Source of the DNA: Rubricoccus marinus
GTDB lineage: Bacteria; Bacteroidota; Rhodothermia; Rhodothermales; Rubricoccaceae
Reading direction: 5' to 3'
NCBI RefSeq assembly: GCF_002257665.1
Contig: NZ_MQWB01000001.1
Span: 3,421,119 to 3,485,118 of the forward strand
DNA length: 64,000 bases
In this document: positions 2,168 through 10,303 of the stretch, in pieces
Numbering within the stretch: position 1 is the stretch's first letter
How the letters are laid out: every line of letters begins with the position of its first letter
Made by a program: the position numbers and the translations under genes
Notes under the pieces: model-generated
What the model saw: only the letters and a program-made list of their open reading frames with translations
What the model was told of the DNA's origin: nothing
Databases searched by the model: none

Positions 2168-3318
2168 CGGACCCGGAAGAGGAAGATGGTCAGGATGGCG
2201 AGCATGGCGGTCACGATCCAGAAGCGGATCACGATCTTGGACTCGTGGACGCCCTGCGCTTCGTAGTGGTGGTGCAGCGGCGCCATGCGGAAGACGCGGC
2301 GCCCCTCGCCGTACTTCTTGCGCGTGTACTTGAAGTAGCCGGTCTGGATGATGACCGAGACCGTCTCCGCGAAAAAGATGGCGCAGAGGATGGGGAGGTA
2401 GAGCTCCTTCTTGATCAGGATGGCGAGCGTGCCGATGCCGGCGCCGAGCGCGAGGCTGCCCGTGTCGCCCATGAAGACCTGCGCCGGGTAGCCGTTGTAC
2501 CACAGGAAGCCGAAGCACGCGGCGCCGAGCGCGGCGGCGTAGATCGTCAGCTCGCCCGTGCCGGGCACGAACACGTCGTTGACGAACTCCGCGAGGTCCA
2601 CGCGGCCCGTGATGTACGTCATCGCGATCAGCGCGAGGCTCACAAACGCGGCCGTGCCCGCCGTGAGCCCGTCCAGGCCGTCGGTGATGTTGACGGCGTT
2701 GCTGACGCCGGCGAGGATGAACGTGACGACGGGGACGTAGATGATCCAGCCCCAGCCTTCGCCGATAAACGGCGCGAGGAAGTCGTAGTCGATCGTGCCG
2801 TTGGGCACGAACGGGAGACTTGTCGCGGTGTGGATGCCGTCCAGGGCGGGGAGCGAGTAGAGCAGGATGCTCACACTGATGCCGAGCACGAACTGGCCGA
2901 TCAGCTTGGTCTTCTCCGAGAGCCCGCCCTTGTCCTTTTTGACCACCTTGATGTAGTCGTCGGCAAAGCCGACCGCGCCCATCCAGCCTGTGGCCACGAG
3001 GACGATCCAGATGTAGGGGTTGGTGAGGTCCGCCCAGAGGAGAACCGCCGAGAACATGGCGAGCAGCAGGATGACGCCGCCCATGGTGGGCGTGCCCGCT
3101 TTGTGCGCGTGGCTCACGGCGCCGGCGTCCTCGCCCTCGCGGATGGTCTCGCCGAGCTGCTTGCGCCGCAGGTACGCGATGATCTTCTTGCCCGCGAACA
3201 GCGCCACGAGCAGCGCCGTGCCGGCGGAGAGCCCGGCGCGGACGGTCACGAACTGGAAGACCTGGAAGCCGGGCGGCTGGTAGGTGGCTTCGAGCCAGGT
3301 AAGGAGGTGGTAGAGCAT
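2164..3318 (-). CDS. mraY: MraY, phospho-N-acetylmuramoyl-pentapeptide transferase
   Basis: Integral membrane enzyme that transfers phospho-MurNAc-pentapeptide from UDP to undecaprenyl phosphate, making lipid I. The 384-residue product has about ten hydrophobic helices and family hallmarks: GTPTMGG near residue 75, the Asp-rich FADDYIKV about residues 118-125, NAVNITDGLDGL about 208-219, and FMGDTGSLALG about 281-291. MAPLHHHYEAQG near the C terminus is the characteristic histidine loop. Its ATG overlaps the murE stop and its TGA overlaps the murD start, so three genes are coupled. No murF lies between murE and mraY, which is the usual Bacteroidota arrangement. Confidence 0.97.
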   Translation of the reverse strand: MLYHLLTWLEATYQPPGFQVFQFVTVRAGLSAGTALLVALFAGKKIIAYLRRKQLGETIREGEDAGAVSHAHKAGTPTMGGVILLLAMFSAVLLWADLTNPYIWIVLVATGWMGAVGFADDYIKVVKKDKGGLSEKTKLIGQFVLGISVSILLYSLPALDGIHTATSLPFVPNGTIDYDFLAPFIGEGWGWIIYVPVVTFILAGVSNAVNITDGLDGLTAGTAAFVSLALIAMTYITGRVDLAEFVNDVFVPGTGELTIYAAALGAACFGFLWYNGYPAQVFMGDTGSLALGAGIGTLAILIKKELYLPILCAIFFAETVSVIIQTGYFKYTRKKYGEGRRVFRMAPLHHHYEAQGVHESKIVIRFWIVTAMLAILTIFLFRVR

Positions 3319-4934
3319 CAGCCTCTGGCGGAATCGGGGGTGACGCCAGAGGCCTCTGGCGAGGTGCGGCGCGCGAGCGTGGCCGTGAGGTGAACGCGGT
3401 CGTCGAAGTCGCGCTTCTCCGTGCCCACGATCTGGTAGTCCTCGTGCCCCTTGCCGGCCACGACGATCACGTCGCCAGAGGCCGCGTTCTCGGCGGCGAA
3501 GGCGATGGCCTCGGCGCGGTCCACGATCTCGGTGGCGCTCGCCTCTGGCGCGAGGCCCGCGCGGATGTCGGCGAGGATGGCTTCGGGGTCCTCGGTCCGC
3601 GGGTTGTCACTGGTGACCACGACGCGGTCCGCGCGACGGCTCGCGACCTCGGCCATCTCGGGGCGCTTGGTGCGGTCGCGGTCGCCGCCGGCGCCGAAGA
3701 CGGCCCAGAGCCGGTTGCCCTCGGGCACGATCTCGCGGGCCGTTGCGAGCACGTTGTCGAGCGCGTCGGGTGTGTGCGCGTAGTCCACGACGCCGAGCAC
3801 GCCGTCGTCGGAGCGGATCGTTTGAAAGCGGCCGGGGACGCCTTCGAGGTTTTCCATCGCGTCCAGCGTCTCGCCGGCCTCGTAGCCGAGGTCTCGCGCG
3901 ACGGCGTAGGCGGCGCAGAGGTTGAGCGCGTTGAAGCGCCCCGCAATCCGGAAACGCCGCTCGTGGCCGTCGAGCCGCAGCAGCAGTCCCGCGACGGCGT
4001 TCTCCAGCACGTGCACGCGGACGTGCGCCTCTGGCGCGGTCCCGTAGGTCACGACGCGCGCCTGGGTGCGCGAGGTCATCTCGCCAGAGGCCGCGTCGTC
4101 GGCGTTGACGACGGCGACGGCATCGCGGCGGAGGCCGTCGAAAAGCTTGCGCTTGGCGGCGGCGTACTCGGCGGCGGAGCCGTGGAAATCGAGGTGGTCG
4201 TGCGTGAGGTTGGTAAAGACGGCGGCGCGGAAGGCGAGCGTGCGCACGCGGTCCAGCGCGAGGCCGTGGGACGAAACCTCCATCGCGACGTGCGTCGTCT
4301 GCCGGTCGCGCATGGCGGCGAGCAGGCTCTGCAGGCCGATGGCCTCTGGCGTGGTAAAGGCCGTCGCGTAGCGATCCGTGCCGATGCGGTTCTCGATGGT
4401 GCCGATCAGCCCGGCGGTCTCGCCGAGGCGCGTCAGCAGGCCGTGGAGCAAAACGGCGGTCGTCGTCTTGCCGTTGGTGCCGGTGATCCCGAGGAGCGCG
4501 AGCGAGTCTCCGGGGCGCTTGTAGAACGCCGCCGCAGCCTCCGCCAGCGCCGCTCTCGAATCCGTCGTGCGGACGAGAACGGCGCCGGGGAGGCGCTCAC
4601 CCTTCCCCAAGGGTTTCGGGTCGGCCTCTGGCGCGTCGCCAGAAGCCGGAAGCTTGTAATCGGGGCCGACGATGGCCGCAGCGGCGCCAGAGGCGAGCGC
4701 CGTCGGCACGAAGTCGTGGCCGTCGCGGCCCACGGCGGTGTCGGCGGACATCGCGCCGAAGAGGTCGCCGCGCGTGACGCGGCGGCTGTCGTCGGTCATG
4801 CCACGGATCTCCACGTCGTCGGCCTCTGGCGAGGCGACGAGCAGCCCGGCCGCGCGGATGGGCGCGATCAGGTCCGCCAGAGGCCTCGGGGAGGTCTCGG
4901 GGGTGGGTGGAGTCGGGTGGAGCGGCGAGGTCAA
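3318..4934 (-). CDS. murE: MurE, UDP-MurNAc-tripeptide synthetase (meso-DAP type)
   Basis: ATP-dependent cytoplasmic ligase adding the third residue of the peptidoglycan stem peptide. The P-loop is GITGTNGKTTT, the central domain contains THDHLDFHG, and the C-terminal TSDNPRTEDPEAI carries the DNPR motif that in known MurE enzymes selects meso-diaminopimelate over lysine. This agrees with the dapF gene in the same window. The product is 538 residues. The only plausible start is TTG at 4932-4934, because no ATG or GTG lies between it and the upstream ftsI stop. An Ala/Pro-rich insert near residues 90-115 and the C-terminal tail contain the window-wide CCAGAGGC motif. The stop overlaps the mraY start. 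Confidence 0.94.
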   Translation of the reverse strand: MTSPLHPTPPTPETSPRPLADLIAPIRAAGLLVASPEADDVEIRGMTDDSRRVTRGDLFGAMSADTAVGRDGHDFVPTALASGAAAAIVGPDYKLPASGDAPEADPKPLGKGERLPGAVLVRTTDSRAALAEAAAAFYKRPGDSLALLGITGTNGKTTTAVLLHGLLTRLGETAGLIGTIENRIGTDRYATAFTTPEAIGLQSLLAAMRDRQTTHVAMEVSSHGLALDRVRTLAFRAAVFTNLTHDHLDFHGSAAEYAAAKRKLFDGLRRDAVAVVNADDAASGEMTSRTQARVVTYGTAPEAHVRVHVLENAVAGLLLRLDGHERRFRIAGRFNALNLCAAYAVARDLGYEAGETLDAMENLEGVPGRFQTIRSDDGVLGVVDYAHTPDALDNVLATAREIVPEGNRLWAVFGAGGDRDRTKRPEMAEVASRRADRVVVTSDNPRTEDPEAILADIRAGLAPEASATEIVDRAEAIAFAAENAASGDVIVVAGKGHEDYQIVGTEKRDFDDRVHLTATLARRTSPEASGVTPDSARG

Positions 4935-4971: not shown

Positions 4972-7077
4972 CTAGCGGTTGGCAGTAAGGGAGACGGAGG
5001 CGGGCAGCGGCGCGCCGGGCGCGACGGACTGGCGGCGGATGACGCCTGAGCCCTTTAGGCGCACGCGCACGCCAGAGGCGCGCAGCCACGCGAGGGCGCG
5101 GCGGGTGGACATGCCGCGCACGTCGGGCATCGCGCCCGGCGCCTCCGCGGCCTGAGCCTCTGGCGAGGCGTCCAGCTTGACGGTCCGGTCCACGCGGGCC
5201 TCGTCGCCGTAGGCGGCCTCGTGGTAGACGACCGGCGTGGCCCAGCCGGCGCGGCGTGGGAGCTTGACGCCGAAGCCCTCGGCGCGGAGGCGCGCAAGCG
5301 CCAGAGGCGCAGGCATCCCGCCGATGCGGGGGAGTTGGGCCGTGGGCCGCGAGGGCAGGTCGGCTGCGGGCGCCACGCGCTGCGCCACGCTCGGGAACGT
5401 GCCGATCCAGCGCGCGGCGACGGCGCCGAAGATGGGCGCCGCCACGGCCCCGCCGCCGTAGCCGTTGGTGGGCCGGTCCAGCAGGATGTACATCACCACC
5501 TCGGGGTTGTCAGCGGGGAACATCCCGGCAAACGAGGCGCGGTATACGCCCGCGGTGTAGCTCCCGCCAACAGCGCTACGCGCCGTCCCGGTTTTGCCCG
5601 CGATGCTCAGGCCGTCCACGCGCGCGGCCTTGGCCGTGCCGCCCTCCTCCTTCACCACGCGCTCGAAGGCGGGGCGCAAGAGGCGCGCGGTGCGCTCGGA
5701 AAAGGCGCGGCGGACCGAGTCCACGGGGGCGCTCCACGTCACGTCGCCGCGCACGTCGCGCCGCTCGGAGACGACGTGCGGCCGCACGAGCAGGCCGCCG
5801 TTGGCGAGCGCGGCGTAGGCCGTGAGCATCTGCATCGGCGTGGTCTCGACCGAGTAGCCATAGGCCATCGAGGTCAGCGTCTGCGAGCCCCAGTCCTCGG
5901 GGCGGCGCAGTGTGCCGGGGACCTCGCCCGGGAGGTCGGAAAGCGTGGACTGCCCGAAGCCGAGGGCGCGGGCGGTGCGATAAAACGCGGAGGCGCCGGT
6001 CTTTTCCGCCGTGCGCGCCATGGCCACGTTGGAGGAGACCTTGATGGCGTCCGAAAGCGTGATGGTCCCGTGCGCCTTGGTGTCGCGGATCGTGCGGCCC
6101 TTGATGTAGGCCCAGCCCTCGCCCGTCTCGATGGTGTCGTCGAGGTCCATCGCGCGGGACTCCAGCGCGGCGATGGCGGTGACGAGCTTGAAGGTGGAGC
6201 CGGGCTCGATCTTGTCCGCGACGGCGTGGTTGCGGCGGGCCGCTTGCGAGAACGAGCCGGCGTTGTTGGGGTCGAACGTGGGCGCGTTGGCGAGCGCGAG
6301 GATGGCGCCCGTCCGGGGGTCCATCGCGATGGCGGTGCCCCAGCGCGCGCCCGCGTTGGCGACGCCTCTGGCGAGTTCCTCCTCGAGGATCGACTGTCGC
6401 ACCAGGTCCAGCGTCAGCACGACCGTCTCCCCGTTCTCGGGCTCGACGACGTTGCCGCCCACGATGGCTTTGACGCGCCCGCGCATGTCGCGCTGCACGG
6501 CCTGCCGCCCGGGGCGTCCCGCCAGAGGTCCGTTGTGCTGCGCCTCCACGCCTGCGATGCCGCGGAGGTCGCGGTCCACGTGGCCGAGCACGTGCGCGCC
6601 GGTCCGGCCGTAGGTGTAGCGGCGCGCAAAGGAGCCGGTGATCAGGAGCCCGGGGATGTCGGCGCGGTCCAGCTCGTCTTTCTCAGCCTCGCCCAGGCGC
6701 GGCACGAGCCGCACGTACTGGCGGCTGGCACGGTCGCGGATCTTGCGGCGGTAGTGCTCGCCGCTCTTGCCCGTCAGGCGGCCCAGGAGGTCGGTCAGTT
6801 CGGCCTCGCGCTCGGCGAAGCCGGCAACAGTCGGGTCGGCGTTGACTTCGAAGGTCGCCGTGTTCTGGACCAGCACGCGGCCGGCGCGGTCCAGGATGGC
6901 GCCGCGCTGCGCGGGGAGCTCCACAAAGCTCTCCGCCTGCTTTGTACCCTCGGCCCGTAGCTCGCCCCCGTCCACCACGTGCAAGCGCACGATCTGCGCC
7001 ACCACCGCCAGAGGCAGGAGGAGCACCACGCCGAGGACGACGTAGAGGCGGTTGAGGATGGTGCGGCGAGCGTTCAC
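4972..7077 (-). CDS. ftsI: FtsI-type class B penicillin-binding protein with C-terminal PASTA domains
   Basis: Septal peptidoglycan transpeptidase partnering FtsW. One N-terminal membrane helix (residues about 10-30) anchors it. A class B PBP dimerisation domain follows, starting with the conserved RGAILDRAGRVL. The transpeptidase domain has S294-T-F-K297, S348-S-N350 and K495-T-G497. After about residue 570 there are two PASTA-like repeats (LPRIGGM...GFGVKLP and MPDVRGM...GVRVRLKG), as in PBP2x and SpoVD types. The 701-residue length fits PBP plus PASTA. The start is GTG at 7075-7077, giving MNARRTILNRL just before the membrane helix. It sits between the ftsL-like gene and murE, all on one strand. 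Confidence 0.95.
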   Translation of the reverse strand: MNARRTILNRLYVVLGVVLLLPLAVVAQIVRLHVVDGGELRAEGTKQAESFVELPAQRGAILDRAGRVLVQNTATFEVNADPTVAGFAEREAELTDLLGRLTGKSGEHYRRKIRDRASRQYVRLVPRLGEAEKDELDRADIPGLLITGSFARRYTYGRTGAHVLGHVDRDLRGIAGVEAQHNGPLAGRPGRQAVQRDMRGRVKAIVGGNVVEPENGETVVLTLDLVRQSILEEELARGVANAGARWGTAIAMDPRTGAILALANAPTFDPNNAGSFSQAARRNHAVADKIEPGSTFKLVTAIAALESRAMDLDDTIETGEGWAYIKGRTIRDTKAHGTITLSDAIKVSSNVAMARTAEKTGASAFYRTARALGFGQSTLSDLPGEVPGTLRRPEDWGSQTLTSMAYGYSVETTPMQMLTAYAALANGGLLVRPHVVSERRDVRGDVTWSAPVDSVRRAFSERTARLLRPAFERVVKEEGGTAKAARVDGLSIAGKTGTARSAVGGSYTAGVYRASFAGMFPADNPEVVMYILLDRPTNGYGGGAVAAPIFGAVAARWIGTFPSVAQRVAPAADLPSRPTAQLPRIGGMPAPLALARLRAEGFGVKLPRRAGWATPVVYHEAAYGDEARVDRTVKLDASPEAQAAEAPGAMPDVRGMSTRRALAWLRASGVRVRLKGSGVIRRQSVAPGAPLPASVSLTANR

Positions 7078-7149: not shown

Positions 7150-7671
7150 CTAGTCGAGCGTGATAGAGGGGCCGTAGGCGATGCCTTCGTCCAGGCCGAG
7201 CGCGGCGGCGCGGGGCATGACAGCCTCGGGGCCGGTCATGCGGTCAAAGGCGCCGCGCAGGCGCTGGTTGGTCAGGCGCAGGCGCTGGTTCTCGGCGCGG
7301 GCCTGCTGCACGTCGGCGAGCGTGGCCTGCGTGGCGAAGGTGTGGCCGACAAAGGCGGTCACCAGCACGCACGCGAACAAGAGCAGGAGTCCCAGCTTGA
7401 GGCTCGGCGTGGCGTCGAGTGCGCGGACGCGGCGGGAGGCCTTCGTCTTTTTGCCTCTGGCGCTGCGGCCGCCGAGCGCGTCCCAGCCGGGCAGGTTGCC
7501 GCTGCGCGACTTCTGCTGCAGGATGGCGCGCTCGGCCTGCGGCCTGCGGGCGCCTTGGGTCTGCTTCGCGCGCGACGGCGCCGCCTTACGGGGCGAGCTC
7601 GTCTTGCGCGAGGACGGCTTACGGGCCGTCGTCTTTTTGGAGCGGGGAGCGGTCGTGGTAGCCATGGTCAC
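7150..7671 (-). CDS. ftsL: FtsL-like septal membrane protein
   Basis: A 173-residue protein with a long, highly basic, Ser/Thr/Lys-rich cytoplasmic N terminus (about 90 residues), one membrane helix at about 92-113, and a short periplasmic coiled-coil-like stretch rich in Gln, Arg and Leu (QQARAENQRLRLTNQRLR). This is the architecture of FtsL, the small divisome scaffold that bridges FtsB/Q to FtsW/FtsI. Sequence is poorly conserved in this family, so the call rests on topology and on its place between rsmH and ftsI. A GTG at 7669-7671 overlaps the rsmH TAG by one base; the ATG at 7663-7665 is an equally possible start. Confidence 0.75.
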   Translation of the reverse strand: MTMATTTAPRSKKTTARKPSSRKTSSPRKAAPSRAKQTQGARRPQAERAILQQKSRSGNLPGWDALGGRSARGKKTKASRRVRALDATPSLKLGLLLLFACVLVTAFVGHTFATQATLADVQQARAENQRLRLTNQRLRGAFDRMTGPEAVMPRAAALGLDEGIAYGPSITLD

Positions 7672-8789
7672 TAGGCGGTCTTCTCGGCGACGCGGAGGCG
7701 GGCGCTCCGCGCGCGGGGGTTGGCGGCGATCTCCTCGGCGCTCGCGACGACGGCGCGGCGCGTGACGGGCGCCAGAGGCGAGACCACGTTGCCGTAGTGG
7801 TCCTTCTCGGGCTGCGCGTCGAAGCTGCCGTGGCGCAGAAAGCGCTTGGCGGGCCGGTCCTCCAGGGAGTGGTAGGCGATGACCGCGAGGCGGCCGCCGG
7901 GGCGGAGCACCTTGAGCGCCGCCGGCAGCGCGTCCTCGATCTGGCCCATCTCGTCGTTGACCGCGATGCGGAGCCCCTGGAACACGCGGGCGAGCGTCTT
8001 CACCTCGTCGCGCGTTGGCACGCTCGCGCGGACGGCGTCGGCGAGGTCGCCGGTGGTCTCCATGCGCTCGGCGTTCTTGATCGCGCGCGCGATCCCACGC
8101 GAGCGGCGCTCCTCGCCGTACTGGTAGATCACGTCCGCCAGGCGCTCGGCGCTGAGCCGCGCGATCATCTCGGCGGCGCTCTCGCCAGAGGCAGCGTTCA
8201 TGCGCATGTCCAGCGGGCCGCTGGCGGAAAAGGCGAAGCCTCTGGCGGCGGAGTCCAACTGGCGCGAGGACACGCCGAGGTCGAGCAGCACGCCGGAGAC
8301 CGTCCCCGGATCGACGCCCGCCTCGCGGACGGCGCGGCTCATCTCGGCGAACGTGGCGTGGACCGGCACGAAGCGCCCCGAGGCCTCGGCCTCGGCGAGC
8401 CGCTGGCGCGCGACGCTCAGCGCCTCCGGGTCGCGGTCGATACCAATGACCGTGGCCTCTGGCGCGAGCGCGTCGAGCAGCGCGGCGCTGTGACCGCCGC
8501 CGCCCAGCGTGCCGTCGATGTAGACGCCGGCCGGGTCGGTGATGAGGAGGTCCAGCGTCTCGGCGAGAAGCACCGGGTCGTGGTAGCCGGTCGCGTAGGC
8601 GCTGGCGCCAGAGGCGCGCGTCTCGCCAGAGGCCCCGTCCGGGCGCGACGCGCCAGCCGCCTCAGCGGAGCGGCGCGGGTCGGCAGACAAATCCGGTGTG
8701 GTGGACCCGAACTGGTCTGCCGACCGAGCACCGCCAGCGCGGGGACGGCGGGAGCGTCGCGAAGAGGACATGGGGAGAGGGGCGGTCAT
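7671..8789 (-). CDS. rsmH: RsmH, 16S rRNA (cytosine-1402-N4)-methyltransferase
   Basis: S-adenosylmethionine-dependent methyltransferase acting on 16S rRNA C1402 in the ribosomal P site. The family core begins at YHDPVLLAETLDLL, and the SAM-binding loop is IDGTLGGGGHSAALL. LLDLGVSSRQLD, FSASGPLDMRM and the C-terminal ViAYHSLEDRPAKRFLR are all characteristic. At 372 residues it is longer than the usual ~310 because of a disordered N-terminal extension of about 65 residues containing several copies of the repeat motif. The ATG at 8787-8789 directly follows the mraZ TAG; an ATG at 8769-8771 would shorten the extension slightly. Confidence 0.96.
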   Translation of the reverse strand: MTAPLPMSSSRRSRRPRAGGARSADQFGSTTPDLSADPRRSAEAAGASRPDGASGETRASGASAYATGYHDPVLLAETLDLLITDPAGVYIDGTLGGGGHSAALLDALAPEATVIGIDRDPEALSVARQRLAEAEASGRFVPVHATFAEMSRAVREAGVDPGTVSGVLLDLGVSSRQLDSAARGFAFSASGPLDMRMNAASGESAAEMIARLSAERLADVIYQYGEERRSRGIARAIKNAERMETTGDLADAVRASVPTRDEVKTLARVFQGLRIAVNDEMGQIEDALPAALKVLRPGGRLAVIAYHSLEDRPAKRFLRHGSFDAQPEKDHYGNVVSPLAPVTRRAVVASAEEIAANPRARSARLRVAEKTA

Positions 8790-9290
8790 CTAGAGCGTGC
8801 GGGTGCCGATCGCGCGGCGCCCGGCGAGGCGGGAGCGGGAGGCTCCCATGTGGCGGTCGGCGAGGTCGGCGACCGAGTGCGCGCTGCCGTTGAGGTAGGC
8901 GGCGTAGGCGCCGAGCGACCACACCTCGATGCGGTTGAGCACACCGATCATCTTGGCCTTGTCGCCGGGCTCCAGCCCGACGAGTTCCATCAGGTCGCGC
9001 GGGAGGCTCACGCGCCCCTGGCTGTCCAGCGAGACCTCGTCGGTCCACATCAGGATGCGGCGCGAGAGCATCGCCTGTTCGGCGTTGAACCCGTCCAGCT
9101 TTTCCAGCTTGGGCTCGATCTCACCTTCCCACACGTCGAGCGGGTAGAGCACGATGCACTGGTCCACGCCCTGCGTGACGACAAAGGTCTCCCGCGCCTC
9201 CGGCCGGAGGTAACGGCGCATCTTCGCCGGCACGGGCACGCGGCCCTTGCTGTCGATGGTGTTCTCTGCTCTGCCCTTGAAGCCGGCCAT
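8790..9290 (-). CDS. mraZ: MraZ, division-cluster transcriptional regulator
   Basis: First gene of the dcw cluster. The 166-residue product has two SpoVT/AbrB-like repeats: FKGRAENTIDSKGRVPVPAK near residue 4 and EVSLDSQGRVSLPRDLM about 80 residues later, each with the D-x-K/Q-GR core. In Escherichia coli MraZ represses its own promoter by binding TGGGN repeats spaced by five bases. The ATG at 9288-9290 is chosen because it sits about 8 bases after a strong GGAGGGG ribosome-binding site and starts directly before the first repeat. The longer upstream open frame runs through the operator region and is unlikely to be translated. Confidence 0.95.
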   Translation of the reverse strand: MAGFKGRAENTIDSKGRVPVPAKMRRYLRPEARETFVVTQGVDQCIVLYPLDVWEGEIEPKLEKLDGFNAEQAMLSRRILMWTDEVSLDSQGRVSLPRDLMELVGLEPGDKAKMIGVLNRIEVWSLGAYAAYLNGSAHSVADLADRHMGASRSRLAGRRAIGTRTL

Positions 9291-9348
9291 GACCGGTGTC
9301 CCCTCCAGGGTGGTTGGTGAGTGGTGGGAACGGGGCGCCAGATGCTTT

Positions 9349-9363
9349 CCCCACTTCTCCCCA
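9349..9363 (-). promoter_or_regulatory. Putative MraZ operator, two TGGGG boxes spaced by five
   Basis: On the minus strand the sequence reads TGGGG-AGAAG-TGGGG, about 60 bases upstream of the mraZ start. This matches the MraZ binding rule known from other bacteria (TGGGN direct repeats, 5-base spacers). Further upstream, TTTGG and TACGTTG separated by 19 bases resemble the Bacteroidota sigma-A promoter (TTTG / TAnnTTTG). Binding is inferred. Confidence 0.6.
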
Positions 9364-9421
9364 CCGCCTGCAACGTACCCGAATCGCCCAAAACGGCCAA
9401 ATTTGGGGGATAACAAACCTC

Positions 9422-9438
9422 AGCTGTGGATAACAGCT
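9422..9438. promoter_or_regulatory. Perfect inverted repeat AGCTGT-N5-ACAGCT overlapping a DnaA-box-like site
   Basis: The 17 bases consist of AGCTGT, GGATA, ACAGCT, a perfect dyad with 6-base arms in the mraZ/lexA divergent region. The same bases hold TTATCCACA on the minus strand (9425-9433), identical to the consensus DnaA box. Nearby are another dyad CGGCC-N6-GGCCG (9447-9462) and CCAAATTTGG (9397-9406). A dimeric repressor such as the adjacent LexA-like protein is a plausible ligand; this is inference. Confidence 0.5.
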
Positions 9439-9556
9439 CCTCAGAACGGCCGAAACAGGCCGATACACAAGGGGTGACAATCCGTTCACCATTCTGCCGG
9501 CCCAGTGAATAGATTATCACCTATCCCTTTTTCCCGCCACCCGGGCCTCGGCCACC

Positions 9557-10198
9557 ATGTCCGCTCAACTTACGGAACGCCAGAATCAGATCTATGAATT
9601 CATCCGGTCCCATATCCAGACCGAAGGAATTCCACCCACCGTGATCGAGATCCGAGACCACCTCGGGCTCAAGAGCACCAACGGTGTGCACAAACACTTG
9701 GGCGCGCTGGAGAAGAAAGGCGTCCTCGTGCGGACCCCCAACGTCTCGCGGGGGCTCCGGCTTCTGGCGAAGGACGCCGACGCGTTCTCGTTCGACGAGG
9801 GCACGCCCAGCCTGCCGCTGATTCCCAAGATGAGCTCGGGCCAGCCGGGCCTCTTGCGCCGCGGCAAGCAGCACCTCCAGGTGGACCTCCGGTTCATGCC
9901 GCGCATCGATCCCGACGACTGCCTCGCGGGCCGGGCCGGCGACGACGGCATGGCCGACGAAGGCATCCTCAAAGGCGACTTCCTCGTGATCGAGGAGGCC
10001 GGCTCGCGGCCCATCCCAGAGGGCACGCTCGTGGCCGTGCTGCTCATGGATCTGCTGGCCGTGCGGCGCGTGGCGTACGCCGGCGAGCGCATCAAGCTGG
10101 TGCCCGCGGCGACGCGCTACAAGCCGAAGTCGTTTATCGTCGGCTCGCCGGCCTACCTCGTGATCGGCCCGGTCCTCGCGGTGATGCGGAAGCTGTAA
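9557..10198 (+). CDS. LexA-like repressor lacking the self-cleavage Ser and Lys
   Basis: A 213-residue protein with the LexA winged helix-turn-helix at residues 1-70 (LTERQNQIYEFI, then PPTVIEIRDHLGL and HKHLGALEKKG) and a C-terminal S24-like domain (ILKGDFLVIEE, then GERIKLVP). In genuine LexA the autoprotease uses a Ser in G-x-S-M and a Lys in T-V-K-R, and cuts Ala-Gly. Here the matching positions are Gly131 (DDGMADEGIL), Arg170 (LAVRRV) and Ser94-Gly95 (KMSSGQP). Both catalytic residues are missing, so RecA-stimulated self-cleavage is not expected. DNA binding and dimerisation look intact. It is divergent from mraZ and shares its regulatory region. Whether a second, active lexA exists elsewhere cannot be seen. 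Confidence 0.88.
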   Translation: MSAQLTERQNQIYEFIRSHIQTEGIPPTVIEIRDHLGLKSTNGVHKHLGALEKKGVLVRTPNVSRGLRLLAKDADAFSFDEGTPSLPLIPKMSSGQPGLLRRGKQHLQVDLRFMPRIDPDDCLAGRAGDDGMADEGILKGDFLVIEEAGSRPIPEGTLVAVLLMDLLAVRRVAYAGERIKLVPAATRYKPKSFIVGSPAYLVIGPVLAVMRKL

Positions 10199-10303
10199 CG
10201 CCAGAGAGATGCGGCACCTCTTCCCCACCGCGCCTCTGGCGGAACGAGTCCCGCATACGCCTCGGGCGAGATGTCGGTGCGCCCGTTCCCCACCTCTCCC
10301 CAC

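Follow-up and report, generated by a model that had tools for sequence, protein, structure and literature searches.

The window, meaning the whole 64,000-nucleotide stretch of Rubricoccus marinus DNA that we analyzed, contains a gene for a LexA-family protein lying back to back with mraZ (Table 1). A position divergent from a division and cell-wall operon had already been proposed when only the letters of the sequence were read, and it is confirmed here, the gene order in the window being mraZ, rsmH, an ftsL-like gene, ftsI and murE. LexA, which bacteria normally break down upon DNA damage, is the textbook example of a repressor whose self-destruction is its means of control, and by sequence and fold the window protein belongs to its family. 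It scores 79.4 bits against the LexA_DNA_bind profile (cut-off 23.7), a weak yet significant 29.1 bits against Peptidase_S24 (cut-off 23.3), and 113.8 bits against the NCBIfam lexA equivalog, barely above the cut-off of 110.95. In alignment with E. coli LexA (1jhh/7b5g, E ~6e-25) it is LexA-like over its full length. AlphaFold2, given an alignment of the window protein, six orthologues and nine further LexA proteins, returned a LexA fold with a mean pLDDT of 86, and this model matched full-length LexA structures with Z scores of 15.8 (3k2z, T. maritima LexA) and 15.2 (3jsp). The DNA-binding and dimerization domains, both described as intact in the sequence-only reading, indeed retain their folds, as judged from the Pfam matches and from the agreement of the model with 1lea and 1jhc.

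The arrangement is conserved: the gene is divergent from mraZ in 39 of the 40 loci examined (38 of 39 loci fetched from eleven families, plus the window), and in most of them mraZ is followed by rsmH, an ftsL-like gene and ftsI. The lone exception is a draft assembly (G051) in which the gene has been relocated. The DnaA-box sequence of the window recurs as TTAT[AC]CACA in 12 of the 40 orthologous intergenic regions (0.2 expected) and also in some mraZ regions that have no paralogue; a link between replication initiation and dcw expression through this box is possible. A sigma-70 promoter scan found nothing.

Table 1. Positions of the LexA paralogue, its predicted operator and the neighboring division genes within the window
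Feature	Position	Strand	Basis
DDGM-type LexA paralogue, predicted non-cleavable	9557..10198	+	213 aa ORF, ATG start
Winged-HTH LexA DNA-binding domain, residues 4-66	9566..9754	+	Pfam PF01726, 1.7e-22; 1lea, rmsd 1.6 over 72 residues
S24/LexA C-terminal dimerization domain, residues 94-192 by Pfam	9836..10132	+	PF00717, 8.9e-7; 1jhc, rmsd 2.7 Å over 123 residues
Ser94-Gly95, replacing the Ala84-Gly85 cleavage bond	9836..9841	+	alignment to E. coli LexA
Asp129-Asp130-Gly131-Met132, replacing Gly-x-Ser-Met; Gly131 at the nucleophile position	9941..9952	+	alignments
Arg170, replacing catalytic Lys156	10064..10066	+	alignments, R in 40/40
Upstream box of predicted paired operator, GGGTGACAATCCGTTCACCA	9472..9491	.	
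Downstream box of predicted paired operator, CAGTGAATAGATTATCACCT, 31 bp from upstream box	9503..9522	.	
Perfect DnaA-box sequence, TTATCCACA	9425..9433	-	
MraZ-box-like direct repeat, TGGGGAGAAGTGGG, period 10, separate from the palindromes	9350..9363	-	
mraZ, first gene of the divergent division/cell-wall operon	8790..9290	-	Pfam MraZ, 1.8e-22
rsmH (mraW)	7671..8789	-	Pfam Methyltransf_5, 6.8e-92
ftsL-like small protein, by position	7150..7671	-	no Pfam match; homologues in the same place in relatives
ftsI-type penicillin-binding protein with PASTA domain	4972..7077	-	
Mur ligase, murE by position	3318..4934	-	

Loss of the self-cleavage residues across a clade

The sequence-only reading had placed Gly131, Arg170 and Ser94-Gly95 where LexA has its catalytic Ser, its catalytic Lys and its Ala-Gly cleavage bond. 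Alignment with E. coli LexA sets the same residues opposite Ser119, Lys156 and Ala84-Gly85, no shift of the alignment restores Ser or Lys, and the 40 orthologues agree in these columns: the Ser column holds Gly in 39 and Ala in one, and Asp129, Met132 and Arg170 are invariant. By comparison, 16 of 16 canonical LexA proteins of Rhodothermales have Gly at E. coli position 117, Ser at 119 and Lys at 156. The window protein lacks two marks of a functional SOS repressor, the Ser-Lys dyad and the scissile Ala-Gly bond. Judged from these alignments, the self-cleavage chemistry is lost throughout the clade and is not a local oddity. With Ser, Lys and the scissile bond gone, RecA should be unable to switch off a protein of this type by autoproteolysis, and we infer that it would resist cleavage in vitro. 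The invariant Asp129 and Arg170 could pair in a salt bridge and so lock the fold, or they could contribute to a pocket.

A profile built from 33 orthologues identified 50 loci in 49 of the 114 Rhodothermales genomes at E<1e-67 and none in the 131 other genomes of the class. The next matches were three diverged relatives at ~1e-31 (G078-G080), followed by canonical LexA at ~1e-26 or weaker. In a 74-protein tree, midpoint-rooted and with a bootstrap that was not fully settled, a branch with support of 100/99 separates the clade and the diverged relatives from canonical LexA. We refer to the clade as DDGM-type; the window gene carries all of its hallmarks, namely the D-D-G-M motif, Arg in place of Lys, a divergent mraZ and phased palindromes (see below). 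Orthologues are ~30-60% identical to the window protein, with invariant HTH positions. Many Rhodothermales genomes, including those of some genera, have no DDGM-type gene, which is therefore dispensable in some lineages. Open reading frames are present at all loci except one (G053; L204, C5:356911-357552), where an in-frame TGA lies in the former cleavage-site region and the operator pair is intact. The diverged relatives (L205-L207), which also lie beside mraZ, read D-D-S-M and T-V-R-R, so that Ser is kept and Lys is lost; they are possible intermediates or reversions. A LexA from the Myxococcales MAG UBA1203 (L159:3992-4645) likewise has Gly for Ser and Arg for Lys (G-D-G-M, V-R-R). It is not linked to mraZ and sits on a long branch among LexA proteins from outside Rhodothermales, and we rejected it as convergent at most.

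In most other families of the order, a canonical LexA that retains Ala-Gly, Ser and Lys is encoded as well. In Rubricoccaceae, the window's family, the canonical-type LexA (L002, L020-L025) keeps its HTH and has lost all three in the seven of seven proteins found; because these nest with canonical LexA in the tree, the loss was independent of that in the DDGM type. In the window's genome this second gene adjoins a recO-like gene. The sequence-only reading had named a second lexA with intact Ser and Lys as the thing to look for. This chromosomal candidate has lost its site. Among the HTH proteins of the genome, dyad and Ala-Gly are intact only in two small LexA-like repressors, encoded on contigs C14 and C15 (90 and 65 kb); three UmuD-like proteins without an HTH also keep Ser and Lys. 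In one family (f11), no further LexA-family match turned up in six of the seven genomes.

A predicted paired operator between the paralogue and mraZ

The intergenic region shared with mraZ carries, usually twice, a palindrome with the consensus AGGTGAAAATATTTTCACCT (GTGA-N8-TCAC). A box scoring above 8 was found in 36 of the 40 upstream regions, with two boxes in 31, one in five and none in four; this count is partly circular, as strict matches from the same 40 regions served to build the matrix. Among dinucleotide-shuffled regions, 7 of 800 exceeded this score. Box spacings are 22, 31-33, 41-43 or 54 bp, corresponding to two to five helical turns, and over 17 lineages, grouped by hand, helical phasing reached an R of 0.92, a value attained by none of 20,000 random sets. 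The operator also depends on the presence of the gene. In the 600 bp before mraZ of 14 Rhodothermales genomes without the paralogue, the palindrome was absent (best score 1.3), although 13 of these regions retain the MraZ-type repeat TGGGGAAAAGTGGG (TGGG-N6-TGGG). G072 was left out of this set, as its contig ends 241 bp before mraZ.

The geometry of the boxes suits a LexA-type protein. The E. coli LexA box is CTGT-N8-ACAG, and the half-site spacing of 8 bp is the same in both. Residue 46 of the recognition helix is Lys in 39 of 40 DDGM-type proteins versus Gln in 16 of 16 canonical paralogues, which fits a different operator, and beside the diverged paralogues of G078-G080 the box takes the form GTGTA...TACAC. 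Motif discovery before canonical lexA yielded a weak ACTGT-N7-ATGT trend (5 of 16; 3-4 in shuffles) and no GTGA palindrome.

When all 114 genomes were searched for pairs of GTGA-N8-TCAC boxes separated by 5-35 bp, the mraZ region came up in 18 genomes, along with six other, unrelated places, and single-box searches revealed no second target common to the genomes. These were pattern searches, and degenerate single sites may exist elsewhere, including at the SOS genes recA, umuDC and lexA; paired boxes are practically confined to the mraZ locus. One site, TGAAAACCTTTTCA, recurred among the single-box matches (G000 C1:390249, and others) and was dropped: in G000 no link to a shared gene was seen. 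The 18 genomes include G051, where the box pair stays upstream of mraZ, at ~500 nt, although the gene has moved; this box could be a relict.

Proposed local regulation and its alternatives

From these comparisons we consider it likely that the DDGM-type protein is a dedicated LexA-family repressor without self-cleavage, autoregulating and local to the divergent mraZ/dcw promoter region, which probably also tunes mraZ. A paralogue deprived of self-cleavage would have been retained as the regulator of this region. Its dimers would bind the two AGGTGAAAATATTTTCACCT-type palindromes, probably cooperatively; a separation of about two to five helical turns would put both dimers on one face of the helix. 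They would repress the gene's own promoter in a self-limiting loop, and probably tune the divergent operon beside MraZ's own box. Release would be non-autoproteolytic, through a ligand, a protein partner, a modification or another protease, or occupancy might simply be set by concentration. Division gene expression would then probably be set without the usual damage switch; the sequence-only reading had likewise suggested that division may be coupled to something other than the SOS response. In the window, 35-85 nt separate the boxes from the repressor gene downstream of them, and about 180-230 nt separate them from mraZ, which makes autoregulation the firmer prediction; control of mraZ is probable and less certain, and draws on synteny and on the one relocated gene in G051. 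More tentatively, the dead S24 site, with invariant Asp129 and Arg170 around Asp130-Gly131, may have become a sensing or partner site at which a ligand or protein releases the repressor and so sets division and cell-wall output, with both Rubricoccaceae LexA paralogues outside RecA control; we regard this extended version as possible rather than likely.

The distance of the boxes from mraZ (about 180-230 nt in the window, ~500 nt in G051) would also suit an activator or dual regulator that activates the operon while repressing itself, and activation by LexA proteins is reported (PMC11157053). However, LexA proteins are mostly repressors and no activation surface is known, and we hold such a role to be unlikely. 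Slightly less probable still are two further explanations. In one, the operator belongs to MraZ or to an unlinked factor and the LexA paralogue is a mere neighbor, which would accord with palindromes that lie in the mraZ intergenic region and remain near mraZ without the gene in G051. Yet the palindromes are missing from the 14 paralogue-less genomes even where the MraZ-type repeat persists, their geometry suits a dimer of LexA-type HTH domains, and they change together with the diverged paralogues. In the other, which we rate equally low, an SOS role is kept, with repair genes repressed and the protein inactivated after DNA damage by Clp or Lon or by hetero-cleavage. The f11 genomes in which it is the sole LexA-family match would fit this, and HdiR requires Clp after self-cleavage (PMC8565304). 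Against it, the paired box is essentially confined to the mraZ locus, most other families have a separate canonical LexA with its cleavage residues, and a protein that has lost them would have to be cleaved in trans at a Ser-Gly or Ser-Asp bond. Finally, a decaying paralogue without a regulatory role, as the in-frame TGA in one copy and the absence of the gene from some genera might suggest, is highly improbable given 49 other open loci, invariant HTH positions and Asp129/Arg170 at such low overall identity, and conserved synteny and operator.

The local repressor that we favor resembles LexA of Synechocystis PCC 6803 (sll1626), which combines an HTH and S24 fold with replaced Ala-Gly and Ser, is not an SOS switch, and for which graded control, possibly by phosphorylation, has been suggested (PMC3091678, PMC7567884). 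As LexA proteins without a cleavage site are already known from these studies, the kind of protein is not new. The window protein shares the loss of Ala-Gly and Ser with a retained HTH, a likeness in kind that need not reflect common descent. Synechocystis LexA has Asp in place of Ser and Gly-Gly in place of Ala-Gly, with no loss of Lys reported, whereas the window protein has Gly131, Ser94-Gly95 and Arg170; the Synechocystis protein also has a broad non-SOS regulon and another operator, and there is no description of it as a second, mraZ-linked paralogue. Coliphage 186 CI, whose switch-off does not proceed by self-cleavage, likewise has an S24-like repressor fold (window model versus 2fjr/2fkd, Z 9.7-9.8). 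It is a phage repressor with a different HTH, switched off by the antirepressor protein Tum (PMC7708051); no antirepressor gene was identified here. Together, Synechocystis LexA and the 186 CI/Tum pair are known parallels for control without autocleavage. With canonical LexA (E. coli, Rhodothermales type 2, Balneola vulgaris) the DDGM type shares domain order, HTH and S24 fold, but it lacks Ser, Lys and Ala-Gly, has a predicted GTGA-N8-TCAC operator where Balneola LexA binds a direct repeat (PMC7739468), and appears locus-specific rather than in charge of an SOS regulon. The non-canonical Bacteroidetes LexA proteins (GGA-N5-TCC and CTAA-N5-TTAG groups) are S24-family repressors from the same wider phylum group; they have a CI-type HTH and intact Ala-Gly and Ser-Lys (PMC8565304), and the DDGM type has neither.

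In the open-access literature searched, we found no description of this clade, nor of a second paralogue of LexA that is fixed at mraZ and has a phased operator to itself. Much of Rhodothermales keeps a LexA paralogue in which the self-destruct site has undergone a conserved replacement. Its sole conserved target, as predicted here, is the promoter region that separates the paralogue gene from the division and cell-wall operon. A "lexA" annotation in this order should not be taken as a sign that an SOS response exists. The locus offers a defined DNA fragment, an operator and a genetic prediction for studying a LexA fold without cleavage, and mraZ/dcw regulation outside E. coli.

A separate observation concerns the decamer GCCTCTGGCG. 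It is absent from positions 8634-10231, which cover mraZ and the LexA paralogue, and neither the sister species (G004) nor other family members carry it at their homologous loci. Over the whole window (1-64000) the two strands together hold 268 copies, against 0.7 expected from dinucleotide shuffles. The decamer often forms overlapping inverted pairs, lies in coding as well as non-coding DNA, and resembles a highly iterated sequence of the HIP1 type.
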